The translations under genes and the position numbers were made by a program. From Clostridiaceae bacterium (GTDB taxonomy: Bacteria > Bacillota > Clostridia > Lachnospirales > Lachnospiraceae): DNA of 64,000 nt. The notes beneath the pieces are model-generated. The model searched no databases. It was given only the letters and a program-made list of their open reading frames with translations, and was not told where the DNA came from. The DNA is taken from positions 62,001 to 126,000 of the forward strand of contig CAJSZV010000007.1 of assembly GCA_910574345.1 (NCBI GenBank). The letters are read 5' to 3'. This document shows, one piece after another, positions 3,135-18,693 of the stretch (position 1 is its first letter; the number at the start of each line of letters is the position of its first letter).

Positions 3135-3151
3135 ACTTCCACATCCAATCC

Positions 3152-4567
3152 CTACTCTTCCATATATTTGTTCAGTTCCTGATACAGCACCTTCCCCGAA
3201 TCATTTCTGGGAATTTCAGGAATCACTCTCACCCGAAAAGCCGAAGGATTCAGCCCCGTCTTATGAGAAAGAAATTTCCTCACTTCCTCCTCCAAAGCCC
3301 CCTCCGTAATAAAACAATACATCTCATCATCACGCCCAGAGCTTACACAGTCAAGATTCCCGAACCCCGCCTTCACCAGACGATCAATCTCATCCAGATT
3401 CACCCGGTTGCCAAAGATCTTCAAAAACCGCTTCTTCCTCCCCACAATATAGTAATACCCGTCAGAATCAAACTTGGCCATGTCCCCTGTCTCCAAACGC
3501 CCATGACGCTCATCACCCTTAGCCAGGTCCTTTCCACACTCTCCATAACCCAAAGTCACATTGGGCCCCTCATACACCAGCTCCCCTACCCGGTCCGGTT
3601 CCCTGATTTCCCTCCCATCCACATCCACAAGAGAAAATTTCCCACCCGGTATAGCGATCCCCATACTCCCGTACTTTTCCAGAGACCGCTCATAAGGCAG
3701 ATAAGACATTCTGGCCGTAGCCTCCGCCTGCCCGTACATCACATAGAACCGCTTTCCTTGCTCCATGGCATACTCCGCAAACCTCCTGTGAAGCTCCGGC
3801 TGCAGCTTTCCCCCCGCCTGAGTCATGGTCCTAAGAGAAGGAAGCTCCATTCCAAAAAACCGCAGCTTCTCCAGCATCTCATAAGTATAAGGAACCCCTC
3901 CAAAAGAAGTAGCCCCCTCCCTCTTAAAAAATGTCCAGAAATCCTTCTGCATCAGTCCCTTGTCCGTCAGCAGAATCTCCCCTCCCACCAACAAATGACT
4001 GTTGATAATCGACAAACCATATGTATAATTCATGGGAAGAGTCGTAATGGGCCGCTCCCCCTCATCCAGCTCCAGATACTCCACAATGGCCCTGGCATTG
4101 GACAGCACATTCCCATAGCTCTGCCTCACTAACTTCGGACTCCCCGTAGAACCAGAAGTCGTAAGCAAAAGACACAGCTCCTCATACAACCCATATTCCC
4201 TCTCATACCCTGTTCCAAGAAGCACATACCCAAAAGCCTGATACCTGACAGCAAAACCCTCAAACCTGTGCGCCAGCTCCTCCGGCACCCACAGATAATC
4301 CGGCCGGTAAATCTCCATAAGCCCTGCAAGAAGCTCCTCATCCAGATTCCGGGCCAAAAGCAGAGGCACCGAGCCCCCGTTAATACACCCCGTGTACCCC
4401 GCCAGACTTCCCATGGTATTAGAACACAAGACAAAGACCAGACTCCTTTCCCCAAGCGCCTCTTTAAACCGCCGGTTCTCCTCCTCCAGCTCTTCATAAT
4501 ACAAAGTTCTTCCCCACTCATCAGCGGCGGCCACACGGCCAGAAAACTGTCTGAAATCCCACATCAT
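3152..4567 (-). CDS. AMP-dependent acyl-CoA/ACP ligase
   Basis: A 471-residue adenylate-forming enzyme with all the ANL core motifs in order: TTSGSTGSPK (136-145, P-loop), YGQAEAT (A5), LETGDMAK (A7), GRKKRFLKIFGNRV (A8 hinge) and a C-terminal PRNDSGKVLYQEL with the catalytic lysine. It should activate an acyl or aryl acid and load it on CoA or on the carrier protein encoded two genes upstream. At about 470 residues it is slightly shorter than stand-alone acyl-CoA synthetases and close to a free adenylation domain. Its neighbours are a type II thioesterase and an ACP upstream (13-bp gap) and LuxE/LuxC downstream. That suggests a pathway in which a carrier-bound acyl group is made, edited and then reduced. 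The substrate is not known. Confidence 0.85.
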   Translation of the reverse strand: MMWDFRQFSGRVAAADEWGRTLYYEELEEENRRFKEALGERSLVFVLCSNTMGSLAGYTGCINGGSVPLLLARNLDEELLAGLMEIYRPDYLWVPEELAHRFEGFAVRYQAFGYVLLGTGYEREYGLYEELCLLLTTSGSTGSPKLVRQSYGNVLSNARAIVEYLELDEGERPITTLPMNYTYGLSIINSHLLVGGEILLTDKGLMQKDFWTFFKREGATSFGGVPYTYEMLEKLRFFGMELPSLRTMTQAGGKLQPELHRRFAEYAMEQGKRFYVMYGQAEATARMSYLPYERSLEKYGSMGIAIPGGKFSLVDVDGREIREPDRVGELVYEGPNVTLGYGECGKDLAKGDERHGRLETGDMAKFDSDGYYYIVGRKKRFLKIFGNRVNLDEIDRLVKAGFGNLDCVSSGRDDEMYCFITEGALEEEVRKFLSHKTGLNPSAFRVRVIPEIPRNDSGKVLYQELNKYMEE

Positions 4568-4580
4568 GCTTCTTCCTTCT

Positions 4581-5270
4581 TCACAAATATTTTTCCAAAT
4601 GCCTGTTCACAATCTCCGCCATTTCCCTGTAATACTGATGAACAAAAAAATGGTTATCCCCTAATTCATAAAAATCAATATTTCCCTCCGTCAAATCTCT
4701 CCAGCCATACGCATTGACAGCCAAAGGGTCCTTAGGACTGTACATAACCGTTGTATCACAAGGAATTTTCTTCCCGATTTCCCTGTACTTATACTGAGAC
4801 CAGACCATATAATCCCTTCTCACCGGTTCCATATAAATCTTCAAAAACCTTTGATTCCCAAGAATCCTCCGGTCAAATCCCCCCAGTTCTATCATCCGCT
4901 TAACAAACTCATCATCCGACAACTCGTGATACCTCTGACTTGCGCTCTCGTCCCTCAAATCCCCCCGGGCACAGATAAAGCAGTGCTTCAAATCTCCCCC
5001 AATCTTCCCTTTCGTAATAAGATCAAAAGCCAAAACACTCCCCAGACTATATCCCAGAACTGCTATGGGGAGACCACTGCGCCTTCCACAGATGTAACTG
5101 GCCGTATCCTCCAAAAACTCCCCATAATCCGTAATATAACCCTCTTTATGCCGACCCAGCCTTCCCGCGTACTCCACACTGACCGCCTCTATACGTTCAT
5201 CCAAAAGCTCCGTCATATGCTTAAAAGAGCCAGAATTTCCTCCCGCAAAGGGAAGAAGAAAAAGCTGCAT
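4581..5270 (-). CDS. Type II thioesterase (GrsT/RifR-like alpha/beta hydrolase)
   Basis: A 229-residue alpha/beta hydrolase. It has the N-terminal LFLLPFAGG oxyanion region, the nucleophile elbow GYSLG with serine near residue 75, SPKDPLA as the acid position and GDNHFFVHQ with the likely catalytic histidine. Such enzymes remove wrong or stalled acyl groups from carrier proteins. The start at 5270 lies one base after the ACP stop codon (TAG-G-ATG), so the two are probably translationally coupled. An upstream ATG at 5288 would overlap the ACP gene by 17 nt and is less likely. The pairing with a free ACP and an adenylating ligase fits an editing role in a small nonribosomal-type or fatty-acid-type system. 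Confidence 0.85.
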   Translation of the reverse strand: MQLFLLPFAGGNSGSFKHMTELLDERIEAVSVEYAGRLGRHKEGYITDYGEFLEDTASYICGRRSGLPIAVLGYSLGSVLAFDLITKGKIGGDLKHCFICARGDLRDESASQRYHELSDDEFVKRMIELGGFDRRILGNQRFLKIYMEPVRRDYMVWSQYKYREIGKKIPCDTTVMYSPKDPLAVNAYGWRDLTEGNIDFYELGDNHFFVHQYYREMAEIVNRHLEKYL

Positions 5271-5271
5271 C

Positions 5272-5511
5272 CTAAAACTCAATCTCATAATTCTCCGATA
5301 AAATGCTCATACCCTTCTCAAAAGAATCCAGCTCAATAATATCATCCGTATCCATCATAATATCAAAAGCCTCCTCAAGAGCCGCAATCAACGACATATG
5401 TCCAACAGAATCCCACTCCTCCACAGACTGATATTTCAGCTGCTCCACAGACTCCTCCCCAACATTCAATGCCTCCACAAATGCCTTAACATACTTTTCC
5501 TTATTATTCAT
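5272..5511 (-). CDS. Acyl carrier protein
   Basis: A 79-residue acidic protein with the phosphopantetheine attachment region EEWDSVGHMSLI. Serine 35 in the DSV motif (a variant of the usual DSL) would carry the prosthetic arm. Length and helix pattern match a stand-alone ACP. Set between an FkbM methyltransferase upstream and a thioesterase plus adenylating ligase downstream, it is most likely the dedicated carrier of this operon rather than the housekeeping fatty-acid ACP, because no fab genes are nearby. The acyl chain it carries is unknown. Confidence 0.9.
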   Translation of the reverse strand: MNNKEKYVKAFVEALNVGEESVEQLKYQSVEEWDSVGHMSLIAALEEAFDIMMDTDDIIELDSFEKGMSILSENYEIEF

Positions 5512-5540
5512 GACTTATCTCCTTCTATATTTCCTTGATA

Positions 5541-6617
5541 TTATTTCAATCTTTCATTTGGTATCCCATACAGAACAGCATCAATAGGGTGAGTTTTATG
5601 GCATCTGAAAAAATACGAATAATCTTCTGCTATACTATTTATAAATTGATAAATATTATAAATATCATCCCTTTTGTGATAGGCAGAAATCATTAACATT
5701 GGCCTGTACCTTCTAATTGTATTTTCAGCTCCCCTTAATGCTTCCATTTCAAAACCCTCTATGTCCATTTTAATAATAGAAATCTCTTCACCTTTTGATA
5801 TATTATCAATCGTATCAACATCTATTTTTTCATTGCCTTCCTCACTGATCTGGGAATACATATCTCCAGACGCCTGAAACATAAAGGTTCTTTTTACATC
5901 CGATACACCAGACAGATAAGGCTCCACTGCCCTCCATCCATTTCTTTCTATATTATCCAACAACCGTTTATAATTATTTCTATCCGGCTCACACGCAATT
6001 ATCCTTTTATAATCACCCACTATATCTATAAAATCCTGAATACTATCTCCATCATAGGCCCCGCAGTCAAACAGCACCTCATCCCTACTATAGTTCCATG
6101 GTGCATCTCTGAAAAAATATTGCGGCTCAACCACATATGGAAGAATTAATCTGTAATCGCCAGAGACCTTTTCATCCAAAAAAGCATTAAACGATTGTTT
6201 TGAAAATTCATCAAACAGCACGTTCCTCACAGCACTAAATTCTTTTTCCCTCTCTTTGTAAAACTCCTCAGTAATAGGTTCTGTAGCCTTTATGTCATAT
6301 ACATCCGGAAAAAAATAAATTTTCTTACATCCCTTCCAATGGTCTTCTATGTCCTGCTGCGATCGATAAAATAATTCTGTATATCCGCAAATTATATTAT
6401 ATTCCTCATAGTTTTTCATAAGAAAACTGCGGGCTATTACATTCCTTGCTCCCTCTGACATATATTCATCATCTACAACGAATCCATCCACTTCAATATC
6501 CTGAACTGCTAATCTTGCATAAACCAATTCAGCCATTCCCTGAGCTCCCCATATAAAAGTCGGCAGTCCGCTCTCTTTTATCTCATCACAATACTGTTCC
6601 GTCAGCTTCATCTTCAT
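5541..6617 (-). CDS. FkbM family methyltransferase
   Basis: A 358-residue protein with an FkbM-type SAM-dependent methyltransferase domain in its C-terminal half: VLFDCGAYDGDSI as the SAM-binding motif I, ACEPDRNNYKRL as motif II, and IIKMDIEGFEMEALRGAE, the FkbM signature. The N-terminal half (about residues 1-130) resembles the nucleotide-sugar-associated segment often found before FkbM domains in glycan loci. It probably O-methylates a sugar or polyketide-like hydroxyl group. The gene is noticeably more AT-rich than its neighbours, which may mark a separate origin. It lies 14 bp after the SDR gene and 29 bp before the ACP gene, inside the same operon. Confidence 0.85.
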   Translation of the reverse strand: MKMKLTEQYCDEIKESGLPTFIWGAQGMAELVYARLAVQDIEVDGFVVDDEYMSEGARNVIARSFLMKNYEEYNIICGYTELFYRSQQDIEDHWKGCKKIYFFPDVYDIKATEPITEEFYKEREKEFSAVRNVLFDEFSKQSFNAFLDEKVSGDYRLILPYVVEPQYFFRDAPWNYSRDEVLFDCGAYDGDSIQDFIDIVGDYKRIIACEPDRNNYKRLLDNIERNGWRAVEPYLSGVSDVKRTFMFQASGDMYSQISEEGNEKIDVDTIDNISKGEEISIIKMDIEGFEMEALRGAENTIRRYRPMLMISAYHKRDDIYNIYQFINSIAEDYSYFFRCHKTHPIDAVLYGIPNERLK

Positions 6618-6631
6618 TCCCTGATCCCTTT

Positions 6632-7369
6632 CTATTTTCTGCCGCCATCAATCCTTATCACTTCCCCATTAATATAGGACGACTCCTCCGTTGCCAAAAA
6701 ATAAACCACATTCGCAATCTCCTCTGCCCTTCCCATTCGCCCCATGGCAGATTTCTCCTCCATTACATGAGGAGCAATCCTTTTCAAATGAATATTCTCC
6801 AAAAGATCCGTCCTCACCGGCCCTGGAGCCACGGCATTGACCCGGATTCCAAACCTTCCCACCTCGGCCGCCAGATCCCTTGTCAGCATATTCAACGCAG
6901 CCTTGGATGCCCCATAAACACAATCCCCCTCATTTACATCCAGAGAAGCAATCGAAGACATATTAATCACAGCCCCCTTTTTCTGTAAAACCATTTTCCG
7001 CAGCGTCAGCTGAATAATCTCATAAGGAGCAAAAAAATTAATATCAAACAGTTCCCTCGCCTTCCTCACTGGCGTCCTTTGAAACGTATCATAATATCCC
7101 ATCCCCGCATTATTCACCAGCACATGAATCTCTTCCTTATCATCAAAAATACGCTTCATTCCACTTTTAATCTGCCTGTCATCCCCCAGCTCAAAATACA
7201 CAGGCCTGATCCATATATGATTCTCAGAAGCAATTCCGGAAATATAATCCTCAAACTCCTCATTCCTTGCTCTCCCATGAGCCCAGATATTCCAGCCATT
7301 GACAGCAAACTTCTCCAGGACTGCCTTGCCGATACCCCTGTTAGACCCCGTTACAATTACATTTCCCAT
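6632..7369 (-). CDS. Short-chain dehydrogenase/reductase (FabG-like)
   Basis: A 245-residue classical SDR with TGSNRGIG as the cofactor loop, VNNAG, and the catalytic Y152-x-x-x-K156 in a YGASK motif. It ends with NGEVIRIDGG, typical of FabG-like reductases. It would interconvert a ketone and an alcohol with NAD(P)H. I placed the start at 7369, where TGA-T-ATG links it to the transketolase C subunit gene; a longer frame from 7405 would overlap that gene and lacks the usual SDR N-terminus. It is a paralogue of the SDR at 12486-13220: catalytic residues fall at the same numbers. Two SDRs, two LuxC and two LuxE suggest a duplicated reduction pathway. Confidence 0.87.
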   Translation of the reverse strand: MGNVIVTGSNRGIGKAVLEKFAVNGWNIWAHGRARNEEFEDYISGIASENHIWIRPVYFELGDDRQIKSGMKRIFDDKEEIHVLVNNAGMGYYDTFQRTPVRKARELFDINFFAPYEIIQLTLRKMVLQKKGAVINMSSIASLDVNEGDCVYGASKAALNMLTRDLAAEVGRFGIRVNAVAPGPVRTDLLENIHLKRIAPHVMEEKSAMGRMGRAEEIANVVYFLATEESSYINGEVIRIDGGRK

Positions 7370-7370
7370 A

Positions 7371-8342
7371 TCACTTTCCCAACGCTCCCTCGATTTTCTT
7401 TGCAATCTTTACGGCTGACAACCCACAGACATCCAGCAAATACTCATAATCCCCTGCAAGAGGCACAAAATCCCCAATTCCCATTAACATATGAGGCGGT
7501 TTATTAGAAACCCCTGCAAGCAGTTCTGCCACCCCGCCTCCCAGTCCGCCCATCACATTGTGTTCCTCAACTGTCACAATCAATTTGTGATTCAGCCTTC
7601 CAAGTATTGCCTCCGAATCCAAAGGTTTTATGGTATGCATATTTACAACGGTGCAGCTTATATCCCGCTCCCGCAAAAGACGCTCCGCCTTCAAACACTC
7701 ATACACCAAAATACCACACCCAACAATAAGAACATCCTCCCCCTCAGTAAGTACATTCCCTTTCCCAATTTCAAAATCATAATCAAGATCCGAATTAATA
7801 ATAGGAAGTCTGTCCCCTCCCGTCAGTCTTATATAAACAGGCCCCTTTGCCTTCATAGCTTCACAGACACTGTAATAGATCTCTATCCCATCGCCAGGCG
7901 CCACAATTGTCAGTCCAGGTATGCCTCTAAGAAGCGCAAGATCACCAATCCCATAATGAGAACCACCAAATCTTGATATAGCCAGTCCGCTCCCCATGCC
8001 CACTATCTTCACATTACAGCCCATCAAACCCAAAAAAGTACGAATCTGATCCGCACATCGATAACTTGCAAACGCACCCCATGAAGTTGCAATAACCGGC
8101 AGGTCCTCACTCGATATTCCCGCAGCGATTGATATTAAATTCTGCTCCGCAATTCCCACATTCACATAATTCTCAGGAAAATCCCTGATAAATCTCGAAA
8201 ATCCTGAGGCAACCCCAAGGTCGGCAGACACCGCAAAAAAATCATATCCGTCCTTGGCCATATCATACACCGCCTGGCCAAGAGAACCCTGAGCTCCCAT
8301 ATGGGCAAGAAACATACAATTTTTCTTTGTAACAGTAAACAT
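7371..8342 (-). CDS. Transketolase, C-terminal subunit
   Basis: A 323-residue protein with the pyrimidine-binding domain (FAVSADLG, NVGIAEQNLISIAAG) followed by the C-terminal transketolase domain. The conserved glutamate in GIAEQN activates the thiamine diphosphate of the partner. It forms the second half of a split transketolase whose N-terminal half is encoded just upstream. The start at 8342 follows the stop of the N subunit as TAG-T-ATG; a start at 8354 would overlap it. Split transketolases occur in archaea and many Firmicutes, and those inside glycan clusters are thought to make or extend special ketoses. The place between LuxC and an SDR suggests that its acceptor may be an aldehyde made by LuxC, which is inference. 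Confidence 0.88.
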   Translation of the reverse strand: MFTVTKKNCMFLAHMGAQGSLGQAVYDMAKDGYDFFAVSADLGVASGFSRFIRDFPENYVNVGIAEQNLISIAAGISSEDLPVIATSWGAFASYRCADQIRTFLGLMGCNVKIVGMGSGLAISRFGGSHYGIGDLALLRGIPGLTIVAPGDGIEIYYSVCEAMKAKGPVYIRLTGGDRLPIINSDLDYDFEIGKGNVLTEGEDVLIVGCGILVYECLKAERLLRERDISCTVVNMHTIKPLDSEAILGRLNHKLIVTVEEHNVMGGLGGGVAELLAGVSNKPPHMLMGIGDFVPLAGDYEYLLDVCGLSAVKIAKKIEGALGK

Positions 8343-8343
8343 A

Positions 8344-9159
8344 CTATAAACCAATCTCCATCCTCGCCTGCTTAAGCAGCTCCTTATTCAAAACCCTGTC
8401 ATGCCAGGAAAAATCATTCTCCATAAACGAAATTCCCTTCCCTTTTACAGTTCTCGCAATCACAGCCTTCGGTTTATGCCCCACAGCCCGGAGCGCCAAA
8501 TTCAGTTCCTCAAAATCATGACCATCCACAGACCTTACATCCCAGCCAAAAGACTCAATCCGCGCTTCCATATTATCCCAAGCAATAATCCCCTTCGTAT
8601 CCCCATCCGCCTGCAGGCCATTAAAATCCACAATCAAACTCACATTACTCAGCCTCTGCTGTCCCGCAAACATAATCGCCTCCCACACAGAGCCCTCATC
8701 ACATTCTCCATCACCTACAACACAAAAAACTCTCCGGTTCCTGCCACGCCTTTTGGCTAAAAATCCCATGCCGACCCCGTAAGGCAGCCCTAATCCCAAG
8801 CTTCCCGTAGAACACTCAATCCCCAATCTCTCATCCCTTACAAGCTCCTCCGGGTAATCAGAACCATTCTTTTGATAAGAACAGATAAAATCCCCCTCAA
8901 TGAGCCCCAGCTCACTCATAACCCCATAGTATGCCAGCGCGGCATGACCCTTACTCACAATCAATACATCCCTGTCCCCCTGTTCAAGTCCCTGATCCGC
9001 AAAATTTGACACCTCCGCCATAACAGAAATCAGAATCTCCACACAGGACAACGAACTTGCCCAATGAACCTTCTCTGAGCATACATCCGCCGCCGAAATA
9101 ATTGTCTGTCTCACACGTCTCGCCTGTTCCTTATGTAACGCCAACCGATTGCTATCCAT
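8344..9159 (-). CDS. Transketolase, N-terminal subunit
   Basis: A 271-residue thiamine diphosphate binding subunit. It contains the GDGECDEGSVWEAIMFA motif with the metal-binding aspartate and the downstream VDFNGLQADG element, plus HKEQARRVRQTIISA at the N-terminus and CSTGSLGLGLPYGVGMG in the middle, all typical of the transketolase N domain. The start at 9159 is preceded by GTAAGGGAG three bases upstream; the longer frame from 9210 would overlap LuxC and adds 17 residues unlike the family. With the next gene it makes a complete two-subunit enzyme that moves a two-carbon ketol unit between ketose and aldehyde. Confidence 0.88.
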   Translation of the reverse strand: MDSNRLALHKEQARRVRQTIISAADVCSEKVHWASSLSCVEILISVMAEVSNFADQGLEQGDRDVLIVSKGHAALAYYGVMSELGLIEGDFICSYQKNGSDYPEELVRDERLGIECSTGSLGLGLPYGVGMGFLAKRRGRNRRVFCVVGDGECDEGSVWEAIMFAGQQRLSNVSLIVDFNGLQADGDTKGIIAWDNMEARIESFGWDVRSVDGHDFEELNLALRAVGHKPKAVIARTVKGKGISFMENDFSWHDRVLNKELLKQARMEIGL

Positions 9160-9199
9160 TTTCTCCCTTACTTCCAAATCTATACCCGATTCACACTGC

Positions 9200-10393
9200 T
9201 CAAGTAACACAAACTCTCCTCGAAAGAACCTCTATCATGTCAAAACCATCCCATTCCAGCGACAGCTCCTGGGCATGTCCTATGGGGACAATCCTGTCAA
9301 CACCTCTTACCCCATATTCGCGAATCAGTTCCCTGATTTTATGAGGATTCACTCCATAGTAGCTCACAGTCTGACACGTTTTTCTCAGCAGCGGAACAAT
9401 TTCCTCCAGCCCCTTTGCCCGGTACTCAAAAAAATATCCCATACCAGATTTATGATCCAGCAGTTCCTCCCAGATACGATCAACCTCAACCCTCACTAAC
9501 TTTGCCCCGTCACTGCAATATGTAACATTCCTATTTTCCGCCGCCAGTACGCAAAATCTCAGCAGCTTCTCACTGCCCCCAATAGGCGGCAGACTATAAT
9601 CCTCCAGTTTCTCACTAAGCTCCCTCCAAAATACCTCTTTCGCTTCCTCCACCCGCTGACCCAGCCACACAACCAGCCTGGGTGAACTACATGCATTCTG
9701 GTCCACATCATAAGTATCCTTATAAAAATCCCTTGCCAGCACCTTTACATCCGCCAGCAAATACTCATCCGCGTTGATCACACAAAGAGAATCCCGGTCC
9801 GCAAAACAGATCTCCACTGCCCTTGGCGGCAAAGAGAAGCTGCGGATATGCCCAATGGTCCTGTTGCCTCCCCAGACAATCCTCGCGTCACAGATTTCCG
9901 ACAGCTGTCTGGTCACCTCATCATCATGGCCATACCTGACAATGCAGATATAATCCCTTAAAAATTCAAAAGGCTCCTCCACGAGAAGTTCCCCGATCAC
10001 CCTGCAGATAACCTCCACCTCCGGAAACTCCCTGTCAGAAATTCTGACAATATTTATATTTCCCGAAAGCAATCCGTAGACAAGCGACACCGCGAACTGG
10101 ATTGGTATGTTAGAAGGTGTGATATGAAAGACTATCCCCCGCCCCAGCTTCAAGCCAGAATCCTTATACCTTTCTCCCATACTCTCCAAATTCCGCCGCC
10201 TAATCCAAAACGCAAAAGAAATAATGCTCGGATACTTCCGCAGCTCTTTATCCCTTAACAGTCTTTCTGATAAACTGCCCAGAAACTCTATAATTCCCCC
10301 ATGAAAAATATCCAGAGATTTCACTGCCGGCATATTGCTGAGAACCTCACTGTCTCCCACAAGAAACCCTATCTGTCTATCTTTCAGCTCCAT
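9200..10393 (-). CDS. Acyl-CoA reductase, LuxC family (copy 2)
   Basis: A 397-residue LuxC-type reductase with VDQNACSSPRLVVWLG (catalytic cysteine 235) and HITPSNIPIQF near residue 90. It shares with copy 1 (839-2047) the YP-x-x-x-FAFWIRR motif, the WGG-x-x-TIG motif and the overall length, but is clearly diverged. It overlaps the preceding LuxE gene by 17 nt, the same overlap seen in the first pair, so the pair was probably duplicated as a unit. It is predicted to reduce an activated acyl group to an aldehyde. Downstream lies the split transketolase. Confidence 0.88.
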   Translation of the reverse strand: MELKDRQIGFLVGDSEVLSNMPAVKSLDIFHGGIIEFLGSLSERLLRDKELRKYPSIISFAFWIRRRNLESMGERYKDSGLKLGRGIVFHITPSNIPIQFAVSLVYGLLSGNINIVRISDREFPEVEVICRVIGELLVEEPFEFLRDYICIVRYGHDDEVTRQLSEICDARIVWGGNRTIGHIRSFSLPPRAVEICFADRDSLCVINADEYLLADVKVLARDFYKDTYDVDQNACSSPRLVVWLGQRVEEAKEVFWRELSEKLEDYSLPPIGGSEKLLRFCVLAAENRNVTYCSDGAKLVRVEVDRIWEELLDHKSGMGYFFEYRAKGLEEIVPLLRKTCQTVSYYGVNPHKIRELIREYGVRGVDRIVPIGHAQELSLEWDGFDMIEVLSRRVCVT

Positions 10394-11462
10394 AGGTATC
10401 GCTGCACCCCCTTATCTCCGCATTCCTGATTCGCCCCATGATCCTTACATACTTCCCTTTTCTCCCGCATGGACAGTCATCCTCCCCTAGCACCATTCCC
10501 TCATCCTCTGTTAAAAGCGAATTGCCCGGATAAGATTTCGGAAGCACCGACAACACCTGAATGATCCCCTTTTCCCCTATATCACATGGCGAAAAATCCT
10601 TTATCCTGCGCGGAATTATATCCGAATAGATACTTGCATGCAGATGCCCACACTCACATTCTCCGTAAATACATCCAGACTGTTCCGCCATACTGTAGTG
10701 ATCCATAAAATGTATAAGACCACATACCCGATTACCCCTTTCCTTAAACAATTCAGAAGTAACCGCCTCCGACTGCAGCCTCTTCCAGCCCCCGCCTGTC
10801 AGCAAATATCCATTAGAACAATCCAACTTCAGCCCCTTATCCTCAATCTCATCATAAAACGACTGCCATATCATAAACGTAAAGCCAAAAATCAAAAACC
10901 GGTCACTGCCATACTCCTCAATAAACCTCCTGACAACCTCCACATTCAATGACATATCATCATTTAATGCAAAAACCATCTTTCTCGCCGCAAAATCCAA
11001 CCCCATTATCGTTGCACCCCTGGCCGTAAACATCCTTCTGTCGCGAATCACCTGAGGCGTATCAATTACCAACATAGGCATTCTCTTTTTGCCCACAAAA
11101 TCCCCCAGAAGACGAAGCAATACCTTCTGCTGCAGAATCGCCGTCTCTTTATCTAAAAAAATTTTTGATTGCAGCTGCCCTGTTGTACCAGAGGACTTCA
11201 TGACCTTAAAAATTTCATTCTCAGGAACGCTTTTCAGCTCCAGCTCCTTAAAAATCCTGACCGGCAAAAAAGGAAAATCCTCAAGTCTTTCCATTCTCTG
11301 AATCCGGCTTTCATCATATCCCAACCCATAGAGAATATTTCCATACATTCGGCAATGATTATAATGAAAACAGATCAAGGACTTCAATTCAGAAATCAGC
11401 ATAGATTTCTTCTGCTGTGCATCAAGAGAATATGGCAATATTCTGTGAAAATCCTCAATCAT
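10377..11462 (-). CDS. Acyl-protein synthetase, LuxE family (copy 2)
   Basis: A 361-residue LuxE-type enzyme with MKSSGTTGQ as the adenylation loop and the same C-terminal CPCGRKGKY and NAEIRGCSDTYG motifs as copy 1. It overlaps the NeuB gene by 8 nt upstream and LuxC copy 2 by 17 nt downstream, so NeuB-LuxE-LuxC are tightly coupled. It activates a carboxylic acid with ATP and hands it to LuxC. Whether the acid is a fatty acid, an amino acid or a sugar acid cannot be told. Confidence 0.86.
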   Translation of the reverse strand: MIEDFHRILPYSLDAQQKKSMLISELKSLICFHYNHCRMYGNILYGLGYDESRIQRMERLEDFPFLPVRIFKELELKSVPENEIFKVMKSSGTTGQLQSKIFLDKETAILQQKVLLRLLGDFVGKKRMPMLVIDTPQVIRDRRMFTARGATIMGLDFAARKMVFALNDDMSLNVEVVRRFIEEYGSDRFLIFGFTFMIWQSFYDEIEDKGLKLDCSNGYLLTGGGWKRLQSEAVTSELFKERGNRVCGLIHFMDHYSMAEQSGCIYGECECGHLHASIYSDIIPRRIKDFSPCDIGEKGIIQVLSVLPKSYPGNSLLTEDEGMVLGEDDCPCGRKGKYVRIMGRIRNAEIRGCSDTYGAER

Positions 11463-12486
11463 ACAAATCCGTCTCCCTGATTATTTCATCTTTATCAATC
11501 CTTCGATTAACCCTCCGGCCAACCACCTCGGTATAATTTTCAGGCGCTATTCCAGTCCCCGGACGCTTCGCGTCCAGATCCTCCACCCTTACAATCCGCC
11601 CTTTCTCCAAAGGTTTCCCAGCCACAATACTCCTGCACATTTTTTTCTTCTGTTCCAGCTCTTCCAAAGAAACCATTCTGTCAAAAGATCCCAAAGACAC
11701 ATATACAGACAAACATTTTTCCACCAATCTCTTCATGGCTTCCGGTTCCGTAGCCATCTGGTTATCCCACCCGATCTTGCTGCTGTCCAGCGTAAAATGC
11801 TTTTCAATCATAGCAGCGCCCAGAGCCACTGCCCCACATGCCACCTCAGTTCCTATGGTATGATCCGAATATCCTATAGGATATTCGGGGAACTCTTCTC
11901 GGAGCATCCGAATATTATTCAAATTTACATGCTCCGCCTTGACAGGATACACAGAAACACAATGAAGAATACAAATGTTTTTGTTTCCCGTCTCCTCAAT
12001 CGTCCTTACAGCCCGGCGAATCTCCTCAATAGTACTCATCCCCGTAGATAAAACCACCGGCAGTCCTTTACTGCCAATATATCTCAAAAAAAGAAGATTA
12101 CTTAAATCCATGGAAGCAGCCTTAATATACTCAGCATTTATTCTTACCAAAAAGTCTACCTCAGCCTCAGAATAAGGCGTTGACGAAAAAGCGATCCCTT
12201 TCTCCTGGCAATATGCCGCCATTTCCTCCAAAGCCTCCTCCTTTAGAGCAAATCTGCCCACCATTCTCTTGGCAATGGGATTTTCCCTGTAATAATCAAG
12301 AGAATAGAGAGTCTCGGCAGACCAGGACTGAAATTTCACCCCGTCACATCCACATTCTACTGCCGCATCAATCATTCTCTTTGCTGTCGCTATATTCCCA
12401 TTATGGCTGGAATTCATCTCTGCAACAAAATACGGCCTGCAGCCATCGCCTATTCTTCTTCCCCCTGTCAATTCTATATCAGCCAT
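11455..12486 (-). CDS. N-acetylneuraminate synthase family protein (NeuB/SpsE type)
   Basis: A 343-residue NeuB-type enzyme: a TIM barrel with FVAEMNSSHNGN, GCDGVKFQ, FSSTPYSEAEVDFL, KAASMDLSN, LSTGMST, ILHCVSVYP and GYSDHTIG, then a C-terminal SAF/antifreeze-like domain (RPGTGIAPENYTEVVGRRVNRRI). The family condenses phosphoenolpyruvate with an aldehyde sugar (ManNAc, or bacillosamine-derived hexoses) to give nonulosonic acids. No epimerase (NeuC), CMP transferase (NeuA) or pseudaminate gene is visible beside it in this window, so the acceptor may be unusual. The start overlaps the SDR stop as TGATG. Family assignment is strong; the exact product is open. Confidence 0.85.
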   Translation of the reverse strand: MADIELTGGRRIGDGCRPYFVAEMNSSHNGNIATAKRMIDAAVECGCDGVKFQSWSAETLYSLDYYRENPIAKRMVGRFALKEEALEEMAAYCQEKGIAFSSTPYSEAEVDFLVRINAEYIKAASMDLSNLLFLRYIGSKGLPVVLSTGMSTIEEIRRAVRTIEETGNKNICILHCVSVYPVKAEHVNLNNIRMLREEFPEYPIGYSDHTIGTEVACGAVALGAAMIEKHFTLDSSKIGWDNQMATEPEAMKRLVEKCLSVYVSLGSFDRMVSLEELEQKKKMCRSIVAGKPLEKGRIVRVEDLDAKRPGTGIAPENYTEVVGRRVNRRIDKDEIIRETDLYD

Positions 12487-13220
12487 CAGGCCAGCCTCCC
12501 TCCATCAATTATCAAGTTGCTTCCTGTAATATAAGACGCAGCATCGCTGGCTAAAAACCAAACAGCTTTAGCAATCTCCTCAGGAGTACCCTGCCGTCCT
12601 AATGGCGTCTCTGCCAAAATCTTTTCCTTTAATTCTCCTGGTCTTTCTGCCCACAAATCCGTATCAATAAATCCAGGACAAACCGTATTCACCCGGATCC
12701 CATACTGCCCCAGTTCCATAGACAATGTTTTTCCCGCAAAAATAAGGGCCGCCTTGCTGCTCCCATAAGCAATTCTTCCCCTCTCATTTTCAATTCCTGA
12801 AACAGAAGCAATGTTAATGATACAGCCTTGTCTTTTCCTAACCATATATCTTGCCACAAGCTGGGTAACATATAGAGGAGAAAAAAAATTCACATGAAAT
12901 ACCGTCTCCAACTGATCAAGGGAAGTCATTAAGAACAGTGATTCATCACTGATTCCCGCGTTATTGATAAGAATATCTATGCTTCCCCCTTTTTTATAAA
13001 CAGACATTACACTGGATTTCGCTGCAGCTCTGTCTGTAATATCAAAATATACCGGCTCTGCAATAACCCCGGCATGTTTCGATAGCCTGCGCAGCTCATC
13101 TTCAAACCCTTCAGACTCCCTGCGGGCACACGCCCAAACGTTGACACCGTTATTCGCAAACTCTCTGACAATACTCAGCCCTATTCCTCGGTTGGCTCCA
13201 GTGATAACCGCATTTTTCAA
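12486..13220 (-). CDS. Short-chain dehydrogenase/reductase (FabG-like)
   Basis: A 244-residue classical SDR with TGANRGIG (7-14), LINNAG, the YGSSK catalytic pair Y152/K156 and a C-terminal TGSNLIIDGG. It has the same residue numbering as the SDR at 6632-7369 and is its paralogue. It is the second gene of the operon, 18 bp after the glycosyltransferase-like gene and coupled by TGATG to NeuB. It probably reduces or oxidises an intermediate of the same pathway. Confidence 0.87.
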   Translation of the reverse strand: MKNAVITGANRGIGLSIVREFANNGVNVWACARRESEGFEDELRRLSKHAGVIAEPVYFDITDRAAAKSSVMSVYKKGGSIDILINNAGISDESLFLMTSLDQLETVFHVNFFSPLYVTQLVARYMVRKRQGCIINIASVSGIENERGRIAYGSSKAALIFAGKTLSMELGQYGIRVNTVCPGFIDTDLWAERPGELKEKILAETPLGRQGTPEEIAKAVWFLASDAASYITGSNLIIDGGRLA

Positions 13221-13238
13221 ATTGTCTTTCCTCCACTG

Positions 13239-14603
13239 TCAATGCATATTAAATGGTATCCCCACATCCTGTATCATCACCGGCTTCCCCGCCTCCCTGC
13301 ACAGCCTTACCAGAGAACTATGGTCCCCATAATAAGCATCACACAGGGCAATGGCCCGGTCCATGTCCGGCGTATTGTCATAGATCCCCCAGCCGGCCTC
13401 ACGGTACTCCTTCACTATCTCCTCATACTCTTCCCACAGCTGAGGCCTCATGGCCTCTATGGTAGCCCGAATCAGCGGATGGGGCCTCCACAGCAGTGCC
13501 ACCTCATCCACATTCTCCCGAAACACCCCAAACACATACCTCATCTTTCCAAGCATTCTCTCGCTGTTACGCAGAAGCGCTGTTACGCTGGTATTATAGA
13601 AGATAATCTTTTTCCAGCTCCCATCCGGCTTCTCGATAACCTTCAGCCACTCCTTCGGCACTTCCACGTTCTCTTTCCTGGTGTCAAGTACTTTATCTAC
13701 CTTAGGTGACCCCAGCCCCAAGATCTTCCCGTCCCAGTAGGCCCGGTCGGCGGAGGTGGTCTTCGTAAATTCCGTCAGCACATTCACATAGATCTGCCGC
13801 ATCTTCTCCGACTGCACGATTATCTTATCTGCATAGAGCATTGCCGGATTGGTACAAAAATGTGCCATATCTTCCACTGCCTCCTGATTGTCCGGCTCTA
13901 TCTCTTCCAATATAAAATAAGGTATATATACTAACTGATCTGTATATTGTTTCAAATTCTTGGAATAAAAGAAAGGATGAACACTTGTCAGGTAATTGCA
14001 CTCATCATAGGGGTTATGTATAAAGATCATATCCGGCCTGTGCTCTTCAAAATCATAGTCCTTATAACCGGTCACAGGCACATAGTCCGGGTACAGATCC
14101 CCCTCATAGTGCTCCTCCCGAAAACTGCCATCCGGGTTCTTTGTATAATATGGAATGGGAATCACATAGGCGTCACAGTCCGGATCTTCATCCGCCGCTT
14201 TCCAGACGCTCTCTAAGGAATCCCACATAGACGCTTTATATGGAAGAAAAACCGCTTCCGTGCGGGCCTTGATATCCTGTTTCACGCTGTTCTCCACCTG
14301 AATCAGGGATTTGCGAAGGTTCTTGCAGGCCCGGCCTCCATTCACTGCCTGGCCCTGGCCTAAAAGGGCATAGAGTTCATAGACGGTCTCGCAGTACCCT
14401 TCCAGAAGAGCGACCGTCACAAATCCCTCCCCTTCTGTCTCCTCTATGGTCTCACCCAGATGAATGGCACTTTCCTGACACTGAGCCAAAAGCTCCTGTG
14501 CACTGTCATACTGGCCTTTTTCTATGGCCTTTTTGATTCCCTCGTGAACCTGGCCTAAGAGCCTTATAAGCTCCAGCGCCTGTCCCTTCTGTGCCTTCCT
14601 CAT
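13239..14603 (-). CDS. CDP-glycerol glycerophosphotransferase-like protein
   Basis: A 454-residue soluble protein. The N-terminal third (about 1-140) is helical with many Glu/Lys/Gln residues. The rest has a GT-B-like pattern: VIPIPYYTKNPDGS, PDMIFIHNPYDE, YADKIIVQSE, LGLGSPKVDKVL, and near the end LLWRPHPLI, ALCDAYYGDHSSLVRLCREAGKPV. The RPHPLI and D-x-YYGDHSS motifs are those of CDP-glycerol glycerophosphotransferases (the H in RPHP and the D-x-S segment). It would transfer a glycerophosphate or sugar to a glycan. It is the first gene of the operon; the ATG at 14603 follows a weak, distant GAGAGGAA sequence, so initiation may depend on the structured leader. The superfamily is likely, the substrate unknown. 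Confidence 0.65.
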   Translation of the reverse strand: MRKAQKGQALELIRLLGQVHEGIKKAIEKGQYDSAQELLAQCQESAIHLGETIEETEGEGFVTVALLEGYCETVYELYALLGQGQAVNGGRACKNLRKSLIQVENSVKQDIKARTEAVFLPYKASMWDSLESVWKAADEDPDCDAYVIPIPYYTKNPDGSFREEHYEGDLYPDYVPVTGYKDYDFEEHRPDMIFIHNPYDECNYLTSVHPFFYSKNLKQYTDQLVYIPYFILEEIEPDNQEAVEDMAHFCTNPAMLYADKIIVQSEKMRQIYVNVLTEFTKTTSADRAYWDGKILGLGSPKVDKVLDTRKENVEVPKEWLKVIEKPDGSWKKIIFYNTSVTALLRNSERMLGKMRYVFGVFRENVDEVALLWRPHPLIRATIEAMRPQLWEEYEEIVKEYREAGWGIYDNTPDMDRAIALCDAYYGDHSSLVRLCREAGKPVMIQDVGIPFNMH

Positions 14604-14664
14604 AACTTACGATTATTCCTCTCTGTCCCTTAAATTATGATTCTTACTTAAATACAAGATACCA

Positions 14665-14834
14665 GGGTCAAAAGGTCGTGTATGACATGCTTACATGTCA
14701 ATACATGACTTTGGGACCCGCAAAAACATGAAAAAGTAGCCCGATAGGGCGGATTTTGAATGTTTTTAGGATTGCGGGAGCATGAAATGCGAAGCAATCC
14801 GTAGGCATCAGGGGTCAAAAAACCTTTTGACCCC
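14665..14834. repeat. 170-bp hairpin-rich element with 11-bp terminal inverted repeats, in the operon leader
   Basis: The element begins with GGGTCAAAAGG (14665-14675) and ends with its perfect complement CCTTTTGACCC (14823-14833). Inside are a long hairpin (GTCGTGTAT-GACATG at 14675-14689 against CATGTC-A-ATACATGAC at 14694-14709, loop CTTA), closed by GGGTC/GACCC (14665-14669 and 14715-14719). There is also GCCC-GATA-GGGC at 14739-14750 inside AAAAACA/TGTTTTT (14722-14728, 14761-14767), then GGATTGC/GCAATCC (14769-14775, 14794-14800). On the minus strand the first arm can pair either with a neighbouring arm as GGGGTCAAAA-GGTT-TTTTGACCCC (14834-14811) or with the far end. Either a mobile MITE-like repeat or a structured RNA; it lies between the promoter and the first gene of the operon. 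Confidence 0.7.
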
Positions 14835-14860
14835 AACATCTTAAATACAACATAAAAAAT

Positions 14861-14889
14861 ATTCTAATACAATATCGTCAGAAAATCAA
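14861..14889 (-). promoter_or_regulatory. Promoter of the LuxCE/NeuB operon
   Basis: Minus-strand TTGATT (14889-14884), a 17-bp spacer and TAGAAT (14866-14861) make a good sigma-A promoter. Transcription would start near 14854 and give a leader of about 250 nt that contains the whole hairpin element before the first ATG at 14603. Seen in sequence; activity is inferred. Confidence 0.6.
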
Positions 14890-15113
14890 GAAAGTTAATC
14901 ACTTTTTCCCAGCCAGATTCTAACAGCCGGCAGCAGTCGGAGCTTTCAGGCAAACCCAAAAGCCCCAAAAGCCGCTGCTGCCATAAATCTCTTATGCACA
15001 GGCAATATGACCGTCATATAACTTCGTTCCTCATCTGTTTCAAAAAACCGGCGGCTCAGAGCCATTCTTTTCCAGTGCCCTGAGGATCGTAGGATTACAG
15101 TCATCCTTTGTCT
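14890..15113. other. Intergenic stretch between the recombinase and the operon promoter
   Basis: No gene is seen here. The only structure noted is an 8-bp inverted repeat, GGCAGCAG (14929-14936) and CTGCTGCC (14975-14982), separated by a loop rich in AAAGCC/AAAAGCC; it could be a weak terminator for the recombinase gene or a recombinase site. Nothing else stands out. Confidence 0.3.
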
Positions 15114-15722
15114 TCACTTCACCTCCCCCTCCTTCCATCTCTCCCCCTTCCGATAGAACGACGTCACAGGCATACCGCACATCTTCGCCGCTTTCCTTCC
15201 CGACAGCTCCCCGGCAATCCACTGTCTGCATGTCTGGTCAAAATTATCCGGCAGCGGTTTCCTTGGCCTTCCGAACTGAACCCCCCGCATTTTAGCAGCC
15301 TCAATGCCTTCCTTCTGCCGTTCCCTGATATTCTTGCGCTCATTTTCTGCCACGAAAGAAAGGACCTGAAGCACAATATCGCTTAAAAAAGTACCCATGA
15401 GATCTTTACCCCGGCGGGTATCCAAAAGAGGCATGTCCATGACTATGATATCCACTTTTTTCTCCCTGGTCAGCACTCTCCACTGTTCCAGGATCTCCTC
15501 ATAATCGCGGCCTAAGCGGTCAATACTTTTAATATACAGCAGATCATCTTCCTTGAGCTTCTTCACAAGACGCCTGTACATGGGGCGGTCAAAATCCTTG
15601 CCCGACTGCTTGTCCACAAAAATATTTCCCACTGGCAGTTTCATCTGGGAAAATGCATACAGCTGTCTGTCTTCGTTCTGCTCTCTTGTGCTGACGCGGG
15701 CATATCCGTACATATTCTTCAT
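15114..15722 (-). CDS. Serine recombinase (resolvase/invertase)
   Basis: A 202-residue small serine recombinase. The N-terminal catalytic domain shows YGYARVSTREQNEDRQ with the nucleophilic serine near residue 11, then the IKSIDRLGRDYEEI and FLSDIVLQVLSFVAENERKNIRERQ helices. A C-terminal helix-turn-helix follows (GELSGRKAAKMCGMPVTSFYRK). Length matches DNA invertases/resolvases such as Pin or Tn3-type resolvase. The start is set by AGGAGGAAGAC before ATG at 15722. It sits alone next to a surface-glycan type operon, a common arrangement for phase-variation invertases, but I found no clear pair of inverted crossover sites, so it may equally be a remnant of a mobile element. Confidence 0.85.
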   Translation of the reverse strand: MKNMYGYARVSTREQNEDRQLYAFSQMKLPVGNIFVDKQSGKDFDRPMYRRLVKKLKEDDLLYIKSIDRLGRDYEEILEQWRVLTREKKVDIIVMDMPLLDTRRGKDLMGTFLSDIVLQVLSFVAENERKNIRERQKEGIEAAKMRGVQFGRPRKPLPDNFDQTCRQWIAGELSGRKAAKMCGMPVTSFYRKGERWKEGEVK

Positions 15723-15802
15723 GTCTTCCTCCTTTTGTAAAATTCAATTCTTTTAAAGACCATAAATGGATAATAAAAGAATATGATAAAAAGAGAAAGA
15801 CA

Positions 15803-15838
15803 CAAAATACAGCCCCTTTCCTTTCCTGAAAGGGGCTG
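15803..15838 (-). terminator. Rho-independent terminator after the solute-binding protein gene
   Basis: An 11-bp perfect stem CAGCCCCTTTC/GAAAGGGGCTG (15810-15820 and 15828-15838) with a 7-nt loop. On the minus strand it is followed by TATTTTG and lies 22 bp after the stop of the solute-binding protein gene. It ends the ABC importer operon. Confidence 0.85.
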
Positions 15839-15860
15839 CATCCTCCTGTCCAATCTGTTT

Positions 15861-17537
15861 TTATTTACCTTCAAACTCCGCGATAATCTCTTCCAATGGC
15901 TTAAGCTTTTCCAGCTCATCCATCATCTTATTATATCCCAGACGGTCAAGTTCCGTCAGATAGCCGTCCCAGGTGGCGTCCACGTCAATCTGCCCAAGAA
16001 CAGCCTGGGTCCGGTAATTGGACACATAGGCCTCAAGGTCGCTGTTGATCTCCTGCCTGATGATCTCATACTCAGTCTCTCCGGCCAGGTCTTCCTTGTA
16101 GGGCCTGTGCTGCCATTTCAGCCATATGCCCTCATCTCCCTCTGACCAGTACTTGCTGCCTGCCTTAAACAGTTCCTCCTCACCGATCCAGCTGGTAACT
16201 TCCTTTGTCTGGCCGAACTGGCTGAAGCTCCAGGTTCCCTTCTCACCGGACTTCATGACATTAAGTTTCTCCGGCGTTTCGCCGTCTGCGTTCCATTTCC
16301 AGTCGAGATCCTTCTCTCCGAAGAACAGGCTGGCCGCCACATCCTTGTCCCCATTTCCGAACAAAGAGTAATCCACAAACTGCAGGATCTTGGCCAGTTT
16401 TTCATCATCCACATTGGCATTGACAAAGAACCTTCCGTAGGCCGGGGAAGGATTCACGGTAGCTCTCACTTCACCCCCGTCAGGTTTGATGCCCGGCGTC
16501 ACAAGAACCTTGGCTTTGGGATCCCGCTCCAGAATCGTAAGGGGCGGGCGATCCGATGCCCAGCTGTTTAAGGCGTTGGTGGAAGTAATCCAGTATCCGG
16601 CCACGCCTGTATTTACCTTATCCCAGGCCACATTTCTGTCATTGTTGATGATCTCAGGGTCCAGAAGGTTTCTTCCGTATAATTCCTGGAACCCTTTTAA
16701 GAAATCCTTGTATTTGTCTGTGGCGTAGTATTGTTCCGCCCTGCCGTTCTGATCGTTGACACCAGTGCCGAATCCATAAGCGGAGAAGAAAGCGCCTTGG
16801 GCGATATTGGGATTGGTGGCACCTCCTACAGCCCCGATGGTATCATTCTTTCCTGTGCCGTTGGGATCTTTATTGACAAATGCATCCATAATCTCAACAA
16901 ATTTGCTCAGTTCAATACCGTCCTCAGCCACATAAAGCCTGTCAGCCACCTGTTCAACATTGACCCCCAGGTCGATCCCTAAGTTTTCAATCCAGTCATA
17001 ACGGTAGAAATCACCGGGAAGATAATAATCCACAAACTGGAAGGTCAGACCGGCTAGGTAGATAAATTCCTCTTCATTCTCCGGATTCAGGGTCTGCTTG
17101 TACAAAAGAGGATACTGATCATAGTAGGCCATCAGATTGGGGCAGTATGTTTCCGCCATTTTTTTTGGAATGGTCCTGATCAGTTCCTGCTCCATCATCC
17201 AGCTGGGAGTCTTTACCTCGGTCCACATGCAGTCCGGCATCTCCCCCGATGCCAGGAGAAGGTCCACTGTGTCCGATGTCTCCGCCTTCTCCACAGTCAG
17301 GTTAATATTCAGCGCATCCTCAATCATTTTCTCCACATAGGAGCCGTCCTCATAATCCGCGTAGCACCATTGCCCTGTATAAGTAATATCATAGGTCTTT
17401 TCCGGGTCCGGCTTTGCCCCTTTGTCCCCGGAGGAACCTGCAGGCCCTGATACCTTGCCTGAAGAACCGGAACATCCTGACAGTGCCAAAACCGTGCACA
17501 ACCCTGTTGCCAAAATCCTTTTGCCATGTTTTCTCAT
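15861..17537 (-). CDS. ABC transporter substrate-binding lipoprotein (LplA-like, family 1)
   Basis: A 558-residue secreted protein. It starts MRKHGKRILATGLC and has a lipobox LALSGC with the lipidated cysteine at residue 22, so it is anchored to the outer face of the membrane. The mature part has the long extracellular solute-binding fold of LplA-type proteins that serve oligosaccharide or uronate importers. I set the start at 17537 because AAGGAG precedes it and the signal peptide begins there; the frame is open further upstream but that part overlaps the sialidase-like gene. It is the last gene of the operon with LplB and LplC permeases. The ligand is unknown; the sialidase-fold neighbour hints at a complex host or plant glycan. 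Confidence 0.87.
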   Translation of the reverse strand: MRKHGKRILATGLCTVLALSGCSGSSGKVSGPAGSSGDKGAKPDPEKTYDITYTGQWCYADYEDGSYVEKMIEDALNINLTVEKAETSDTVDLLLASGEMPDCMWTEVKTPSWMMEQELIRTIPKKMAETYCPNLMAYYDQYPLLYKQTLNPENEEEFIYLAGLTFQFVDYYLPGDFYRYDWIENLGIDLGVNVEQVADRLYVAEDGIELSKFVEIMDAFVNKDPNGTGKNDTIGAVGGATNPNIAQGAFFSAYGFGTGVNDQNGRAEQYYATDKYKDFLKGFQELYGRNLLDPEIINNDRNVAWDKVNTGVAGYWITSTNALNSWASDRPPLTILERDPKAKVLVTPGIKPDGGEVRATVNPSPAYGRFFVNANVDDEKLAKILQFVDYSLFGNGDKDVAASLFFGEKDLDWKWNADGETPEKLNVMKSGEKGTWSFSQFGQTKEVTSWIGEEELFKAGSKYWSEGDEGIWLKWQHRPYKEDLAGETEYEIIRQEINSDLEAYVSNYRTQAVLGQIDVDATWDGYLTELDRLGYNKMMDELEKLKPLEEIIAEFEGK

Positions 17538-17604
17538 AATAATCTCCTTATTCACCACTGTTAATCTGTGTTTCTGTCCTCTTTCCAGGCCAAAGGCTGC
17601 CTTC

Positions 17605-18693
17605 TTAAAGCCCGGCAATCTCTTCCCTGGCAATTCTCCTGACCCTGAACCTGGCCAGACAGCTTCCATCTTCCGGACCTCCTGCACAGTATCCGAGAAG
17701 AATGGCCTCCTCTGTAAAATGAATGGCGCAGTAGCAGTATCCGTGATCTTTTTTTGTCTCAAAAGCAGTCTCCTCTGAGAATGTCCTTCCGTTGTCACGG
17801 CTCACAGCCATGACAAAAGGTGTCCTTCCCCCTGTAAAAATCCCGGTTTTCTCTCTTCCGTTATACTCAGGCACCGGATTCCACACTGCGTAGACATATC
17901 CTGTCTTCCCATCCCGTTTCATGCTTAAGGGGCTGTTGGGAGCCGTAAACCGGGAGGGCTGGGCCTCGGTCCAGGTGCTGCCGCTGTCCACGGAATACAT
18001 CTCGTACTGTCTTCCCAGGTCCGTCCTTGCAAATCCCCACAAAATCCCCGGAGATAGTTCAAGAACTCCCGGCTCCTGAAGTCCTGACTGACAGTTGGCC
18101 ATGTGGGGCATAGAGCATTTTCCCTCCGCCTCATTCCAGGTAATTCCGTCGTCGTCCGAGTAAAAAAATACGACTTCCGACCGGCTGTCAAAATAGTCCT
18201 CTCCCGTTCTGTGGCTTGCAGCCGGAATCAGAATCCTTCCTCCCGATAGCCGGACGACTCTGTCGTTATTCACCACATAGAACCCTTCACGGGGGGTACA
18301 TAATACCCGTTCCCCCCATGTTGCTCCTCCGTCTTTCGACCTTCTCACATACATTTGAAGCAGAGTATAGGTGCGGCGTACCAGATAAAACAGACCTATA
18401 TCCCCGTTCTCCATATGCATCAGGGAAGGGCACATGACATTGACCGCCTCTTCCCTGCCGCAGTCCACCAGAATTCGTTCCCCGCCAAAGGTACTTCCTC
18501 CGTCTTTTGAAGTCGCTATGCAGATATCCGCAGGAGCCCAGTCCGCAAAGCTTTTCCCTCTGTACTTACTGTAGGCAAGGATAATCTCTCCATTCTTTCC
18601 TGTGAGAAAAGCCCCCTCACTGTTTCTGGGATTCCCTTTTTCGGCATCCGGCTTAAACTCTGCTGCCACAGTTCCAAGTTCCATCTCTCTCAT
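17605..18693 (-). CDS. Sialidase-fold (BNR/Asp-box) glycoside hydrolase-like protein
   Basis: A 362-residue protein without signal peptide that has five Asp boxes (S-x-D-x-G-x-T-W/F) at about residues 62-70, 119-127, 179-187, 234-242 and 298-306, the hallmark of a six-bladed sialidase-type propeller. The N-terminus lacks an obvious F/Y-RIP arginine motif, so true sialidase activity is uncertain; exo-acting hydrolases or epimerase-like members of the same fold are possible. Being cytoplasmic, it would act on a saccharide brought in by the importer encoded in the same operon, between the LplC permease and the binding protein. Fold call is good, the activity is inference. Confidence 0.75.
   Translation of the reverse strand: MREMELGTVAAEFKPDAEKGNPRNSEGAFLTGKNGEIILAYSKYRGKSFADWAPADICIATSKDGGSTFGGERILVDCGREEAVNVMCPSLMHMENGDIGLFYLVRRTYTLLQMYVRRSKDGGATWGERVLCTPREGFYVVNNDRVVRLSGGRILIPAASHRTGEDYFDSRSEVVFFYSDDDGITWNEAEGKCSMPHMANCQSGLQEPGVLELSPGILWGFARTDLGRQYEMYSVDSGSTWTEAQPSRFTAPNSPLSMKRDGKTGYVYAVWNPVPEYNGREKTGIFTGGRTPFVMAVSRDNGRTFSEETAFETKKDHGYCYCAIHFTEEAILLGYCAGGPEDGSCLARFRVRRIAREEIAGL

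Follow-up and report, generated by a model that had tools for sequence, protein, structure and literature searches.

REP elements and REPINs are dispersed palindromic extragenic elements, often located just 3' of genes. RF01699 is listed as the Clostridiales-1 RNA in a table of Weinberg et al. 2010 (PMC2864571), where it is classed as probably an RNA and not as cis-regulatory; the portion of PMC3050895 covered here does not name the family. In the window, by which we mean the whole 64,000-nucleotide stretch of Lachnospiraceae DNA that was analyzed, a copy of this RNA lies just upstream of a large biosynthetic operon, in a region that an earlier note had read as the leader of that operon. We are highly confident that positions 14658-14840 of the window are a MITE insertion and not a switch built for the operon.

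Anatomy of the element

The element occupies positions 14658-14840 on the plus strand, which is the strand of the RF01699 RNA, and is delimited by inverted ends and a flanking direct repeat. Searches for end motifs and inverted repeats placed the left terminal inverted repeat, GATACCAGGGTCAAAAGG, at 14658-14675 (plus strand) and the right one, GATGTTGGGGTCAAAAGG as read on the minus strand, at 14823-14840. These 18-bp ends bound a unit of 183 bp, which is too short for a transposase gene, as expected of a MITE, and an inverted-repeat search of 13000-17900 found the slightly wider arms 14656-14676 and 14822-14842 to be complementary at 81%. Also as expected of a MITE, there is a target duplication on either flank, exact over 10 bp (no strand assigned), with TTAAATACAA at both 14648-14657 and 14841-14850. 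The plus strand from 14657 to 14810 matches RF01699 with a score of 128 bits (gathering score 48) over model positions 1-166 of 166, making it a full-length member of the Rfam family. Beyond the Rfam model there is a right-end hairpin at 14811-14834 (plus strand), in which GGGGTCAAAA (14811-14820) is paired with TTTTGACCCC (14825-14834). Folded alone, the plus strand of the element has a z-score of -11.3. Because RF01699 is on the plus strand and the operon on the minus strand, the operon leader would carry the antisense of the RF01699 RNA. Neither the 10-bp direct repeat nor the plus-strand location of a catalogued RNA appears in the earlier note.

That note had proposed two mutually exclusive pairings in the leader. 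Both sets of arms are present: the local hairpin is the right-end hairpin, and GGGTCAAAAGG occurs on the plus strand at 14665 with its complement at 14823. Both pairings draw on the inverted ends of a transposed unit. For the minus-strand leader (14854-14580) the folding z-score is -4.0, and none of 200 dinucleotide shuffles folds as well. In its minimum-energy fold the local hairpin is formed and the distant arm is paired elsewhere, so the predicted fold does not show an evenly matched switch. The promoter that the note described (TTGATT-17-TAGAAT, minus strand) is present at 14861-14889, beyond the element, as a promoter-like site of a kind that is no more frequent here than in shuffled sequence (1 found; mean 1.0 expected by chance). 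The 54 bp spanning this site are 89% identical at the orthologous locus of a congener, G022, which gives the putative promoter mild independent support. We found no plus-strand promoter-like site in 14400-15120.

The operon and its orthologs

The first gene of the operon (13239-14603, minus strand) encodes 454 amino acids, has no Pfam match, and has homologs in 15 of the 80 genomes searched, its own included. The operon as a whole (839-14603) encodes NeuB, two LuxE/LuxC-like pairs, split transketolase halves, short-chain dehydrogenases, and an FkbM-type methyltransferase, and has AMP-binding and thioesterase genes. Upstream of it is a serine resolvase-type gene (15114-15722), which is next to the promoter region in G022 too. 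We considered whether this nearby resolvase works an invertible promoter, and rejected the idea: in the inverted-repeat search of 13000-17900, no pair of repeats brackets the promoter-like site apart from the ends of the element itself and some long pairs of weak match.

The closest ortholog of the first gene (91% identity) is that of G022. RF01699 is absent from the leader of its operon, where the interval between promoter region and gene is instead about 1.9 kb long and contains a TnpB-type gene with a Pfam TNB domain (locus L360, 1727-3616, contig 93). As the G022 leader carries this different insertion and the other homologs have little upstream sequence in common with the window, the window copy has no clean empty counterpart among the loci compared, which counts against a MITE. 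When eight homologous loci were compared, the gene start was strongly common to one and the leader to none. Searching with our own model, we found the RNA at none of 20 loci within the stretch examined (14 loci around 11 first-gene homologs). A riboswitch or operon leader should be kept in front of orthologous operons, and this one is kept at 0 of the 11 first-gene homologs. To judge from sequence, the operon does not need the element; the congener ortholog keeps the promoter region without it.

The element moves as DNA

The earlier note had named many near-identical copies at unrelated places as an observation that would speak against a switch. We searched for such copies and found them. The genome from which the window comes has 24 matches to RF01699 (18 above the cut-off) and 47 BLAST hits to the leader DNA, of which many are short fragments. 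Among the matches listed, six others in this genome are near-identical (93-99% over 183-200 bp), and the best five of these cover the whole unit. The end motif, allowing at most two mismatches, occurs 131 times (68 + 63), compared with 49 (29 + 20) for the reversed motif. Many dispersed copies in one genome are what a MITE would leave. Sister copies are flanked by repeats of mostly 7-8 bp, for example ATCGTAT, ATGTCAT and ATAACAT.

To place these on a wider footing we collected 210 copies from this genome, related genomes and named genomes, of which 134 lack the right end, 11 lack the left end and 65 have both. Among the 65 two-ended elements (Lachnospiraceae), 37 have an exact flanking repeat of at least 6 bp, 32 of them of exactly 7 bp; with flanks swapped between elements (500 swaps) the mean was 1.2 and the maximum 5. 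AT closes the left flank in 49 of the 65 and opens the right flank in 49. Counting against a MITE, 28 of the 65 have no exact duplication, and the duplication in the window is 10 bp long compared with the usual 7.

Empty sites were sought by joining the flanks of 12 sites in the window's genome and comparing them with 25 congeners (hits counted by hand from alignment rows). For a full-length copy (L004, contig C16, approximately 35.2 kb) the junction aligned through in 22 of the 25 congeners, and for a 70-bp derivative consisting of ends (L080, contig C12, approximately 90.7 kb) in 5 of 25. End-only derivatives range from 36 to 83 bp (L072, 412-447; L080, 557-626; L037, 318-400; L046, 1468-1518), and flanking duplications of 7-8 bp are present at three of the four.

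The same genome has an open reading frame for a 536-residue DDE protein (contig C11, 107811-109418), inside an 1853-bp unit with similar ends. Its best NCBIfam model is IS1182 (NF033551), at 126 bits against a curated cut-off of 270, so we refer to it as IS1182-like and no more. The flanks of the C11 unit do not form a perfect duplication; CTATAAT, the sequence on its left, is found again beside an end on another contig. In a congener, G005 (contig C77), a complete unit of 1875 bp is bounded by GATGTTGGGGTAAAAA and GATGTAAGGGCTAAAA and has ATACTAT outside each end, which makes it an autonomous transposon with matching ends and a duplication; its transposase is 57% identical to the C11 protein. 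Because the G005 unit combines similar ends with a 7-bp duplication, an IS1182-like DDE transposase, such as the C11 protein, probably moves the MITE in trans. The 7-bp duplications argue against mobilization of the MITE form by a RAYT (HUH) transposase, the kind that mobilizes REP elements and REPINs. An attempt to link every genome that has RF01699 to a C11-type transposase failed: C11 homologs are present in 9 of 80 genomes and RF01699 in 38 of 99, so this transposase cannot account for all of them.

Range and orientation of RF01699 copies

Of 396 Lachnospiraceae genomes, 213 have RF01699 (184 above the cut-off), as do 5 of 398 genomes drawn from the whole phylum; four of these five (the window's own genome included) belong to the same family and one to the same order. 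In named genomes we found at least 119 stretches with the core pattern; 80 were made into loci, and the model confirmed 76 of the 80. From their titles we take the named carriers to be mostly Lachnospiraceae (for example Butyrivibrio, Lachnospira, Agathobacter, Hungatella and Muricomes). Some, though few, are titled only Clostridiales, Eubacteriales, Clostridiaceae or Mollicutes bacterium.

We divided the copies into three classes: A, with the right MITE end; B, starting with AAAGT or AAAGC; and C, with neither. Genes were called with a crude six-frame caller, and 35 of the 210 copies were set aside (23 lacked a flanking ORF, 9 lay too distant from one and 3 were duplicates), leaving 175; locus L401, cut by a contig end, was also excluded. 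Writing the orientation of the upstream and downstream genes relative to the RNA in the order '++', '-+', '--' and '+-', the counts are 13, 21, 21 and 8 in class A, 18, 6, 10 and 4 in class B, and 44, 16, 9 and 5 in class C. The excess of '++' over '--' is significant in class C alone (binomial P = 1 x 10-6; P = 0.23 in A and 0.18 in B), and class C differs from A and B combined (Fisher P = 3 x 10-4); the classes were defined after the data had been seen, and copies within one genome are not independent. The window copy is a class A copy in '--' orientation. That MITE-ended copies have no bias of '++' over '--' (13 versus 21) supports the MITE reading. Their placement is not fully random: '-+' exceeds '+-' (21 versus 8, P = 0.02), and 5 of the 21 with a sense gene upstream begin at its stop codon. 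Both points count against it.

Outside class A we saw no clear signal of target duplication. Flanking repeats of at least 8 nt occur at 3 of 41 class B copies (swapped mean 1.6) and 10 of 82 class C copies (swapped mean 3.0, maximum 7), and several of those ten are tandem copies. Another type of end, with AAAGTCC or AAAGCCC at the start of the RNA, recurs within genomes (L180-L184 in genome G054; L016, L018, L019 and L020 in the window's genome), and in copies of this type we found no clear target duplication. Some copies form arrays: 28 of 109 have a similar sequence in the same direction within 250 nt downstream (score at least 50), and the 8 of 109 with a similar sequence upstream are all later members of arrays. 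We aligned 15 such loci, and in several of them the first hairpin is missing from the later copies. Tandem arrays with the full RNA in first place are seen in L160 (2001-2445), L157 (2001-2437), L173 (2001-2269), L018 (1501-1958) and L176 (1822-2173).

RF01699 is real as a structure

We built a model, R1, from 25 copies and aligned 120 matches with it. All 36 model pairs have changed on both sides at least once, and pairing holds in 94% of cells. Covariation scores 0.545, compared with 0.174 for shuffles and no more than 0.081 when the structure is slid. Across 25 divergent copies, several bases outside helices do not vary or hardly do so. The RF01699 RNA is real as a structure.

With regard to strand, the core stems hold 21 G-U cells and 5 A-C cells (50 rows below 80% identity, summed by hand), and all stems hold 77 G-U and 42 A-C among 3528 cells (100 rows), counts to be read with caution since the alignment was itself fitted to the structure. 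The core-stem excess favors the Rfam strand as the putative RNA strand. By folding energy the RF01699 strand is the more stable in 160 of 167 copies, and since shuffles of the same composition already give 150 of 167, the test leaves a modest excess.

Copies without MITE ends often start at stop codons

Unexpectedly, many class C copies begin at the end of a gene. Where the upstream gene is in the sense orientation, its stop codon falls between -10 and +8 nt of the 5' end of the RNA in 27 of 49 class C copies, 5 of 21 in class A and 7 of 22 in class B, whereas for upstream genes in antisense the nearer end falls in this range in 0 of 25, 0 of 42 and 1 of 16, respectively. Overall, 40 of 184 copies have a sense stop codon in the range, and 34 of the 40 lack a MITE end. 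In these 34 we took the longest Watson-Crick helix that joins the two ends of the RNA and includes the stop codon; it has a mean length of 6.1 bp, compared with 3.7 bp (sd 0.2, maximum 4.3) in 300 trials with swapped 3' ends, and it reaches at least 6 bp in 18 of the 34 (swapped mean 3.6), a comparison that partly mirrors the co-variation of the element's own arms. The evidence for recruitment of the stop codon itself lies in native gene ends within the helix, and three such sites were inspected closely. For example, at purF-purB in Butyrivibrio hungatei, purF finishes in ...GAGCAATAA, and AGCAATA there pairs with TATTGCT. The arms of the closing helix can reach into flanking gene sequence.

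Flanking genes named by NCBIfam are purF-purB, panC-coaBC, argS-serS, alaS, and the pair of acetyl-CoA acetyltransferase and 3-hydroxybutyryl-CoA dehydrogenase; a further pair, below the NCBIfam threshold used, was taken by eye for atpE-atpF. Three sites out of five were inspected (purF-purB, thiolase and putative atpE-atpF), and at these the junction is the same in relatives, as a short gap with no RNA. Copies without MITE ends that start at stop codons, often between housekeeping pairs, include L287 (2227-2379), L142 (2001-2152), L140 (2001-2165) and L295 (6478-6626), among others, and in these the closing helix contains the stop codon. The class C geometry suggests a coupling to translation termination in operons.

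Discussion

The inverted ends, target duplication, dispersed copies, empty sites for two other insertions and the G005 transposon support what the earlier note had offered as its alternative, that a small mobile repeat landed here. On this reading a non-autonomous 183-bp MITE-like transposon inserted between the promoter-like site and the first gene, duplicating a 10-bp target. For the operon the element would be a passenger that adds approximately 190 nt of antisense, hairpin-rich leader, and any effect on operon expression would be incidental.

The note's main proposal, an operon-specific leader switch in which a local hairpin versus a long-range closure controls the biosynthetic operon, is by now scarcely credible. 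Its alternative pairings are real, its leader has a z-score of -4.0 and its promoter-like site is correctly placed, but copies are dispersed through the genome, a target duplication flanks the unit, RF01699 lies on the strand opposite to the operon, the RNA is missing from the stretches searched around all 11 first-gene homologs, and the predicted fold prefers the local hairpin. A riboswitch or attenuator for this operon is likewise rejected, given the dispersed copies together with the orthologous operon that lacks the element. A different role in place would be for the window copy still to make a plus-strand RF01699 RNA that acts where it stands, for example as an antisense over the leader. 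The absence of a plus-strand promoter-like site in 14400-15120, and of a '++' over '--' bias among MITE-ended copies, makes this quite improbable, even with full-length RF01699 kept in the window and all 36 model pairs changed on both sides across the 120 matches.

A third alternative concerns RF01699 as a whole. Covariation and the stop-codon helix could come from the perfecting of palindromes at the DNA level, that is, by template switching at quasi-palindromes, and not from RNA function. G-U cells are rare overall (77 of 3528, with 42 A-C), and closing-helix arms can run on into flanking genes, as such a process would allow. Against it, several unpaired bases stay constant, or almost constant, across 25 divergent copies, copies without MITE ends are strongly sense-biased and start at stop codons, and G-U exceeds A-C in the core stems (21 versus 5, in an alignment fitted to the structure). 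We regard it as an unlikely explanation, and one that could yield part of the pattern.

Setting the MITE insertion in the window beside the class C copies, we tentatively consider it possible that RF01699 is at root a putative intercistronic, translation-coupled RNA of Lachnospiraceae that transposons captured into MITE copies, in other words a mobile RNA element with a fold that reads out translation termination. It would begin at the stop codon of the upstream gene, and its closing helix would include that codon, at times together with the final codons of the gene, while the opposite strand of the helix would change in step. By opening this helix, a ribosome that terminates there would affect the downstream gene or how stable the message is. 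In the part of the literature that our search covered, outside which most subscription journals lie, neither mobility of RF01699 nor stop-codon coupling of the class C kind is reported.

These results matter because RF01699, which Rfam lists as a small-RNA gene of unknown role, has one form that travels as a transposon passenger. Genomes annotated with the family will therefore include transposon copies, which it would be a mistake to read as conserved genes. Once the MITE form is set apart from the sense-oriented form at stop codons, the role of the RNA can be tested, since the latter keeps a tight geometry to translation at housekeeping pairs such as purF-purB, argS-serS and panC-coaBC.

Compared with REP elements and REPINs, RF01699 elements are long multi-helix RNAs with covariation; the MITE form has a two-ended target duplication, and the other form a sense-strand bias. 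With the IS1182-like insertion sequences (C11 in the window's own genome and C77 in G005) the MITEs share the GATNNNGGGGTCAAAA-like form of the ends, and with the G005 unit the 7-bp ATNNNAT duplication as well, but neither of these transposons has an RF01699 RNA inside it. The RNA in the window is the same as RF01699 of Weinberg et al. 2010 (PMC2864571), being a full-length family member above the gathering score. The portion of that paper covered here makes no mention of mobility, whereas in the genomes we analyzed the RNA rides on transposed units that have target duplications, and is found elsewhere as sense-oriented copies at stop codons.
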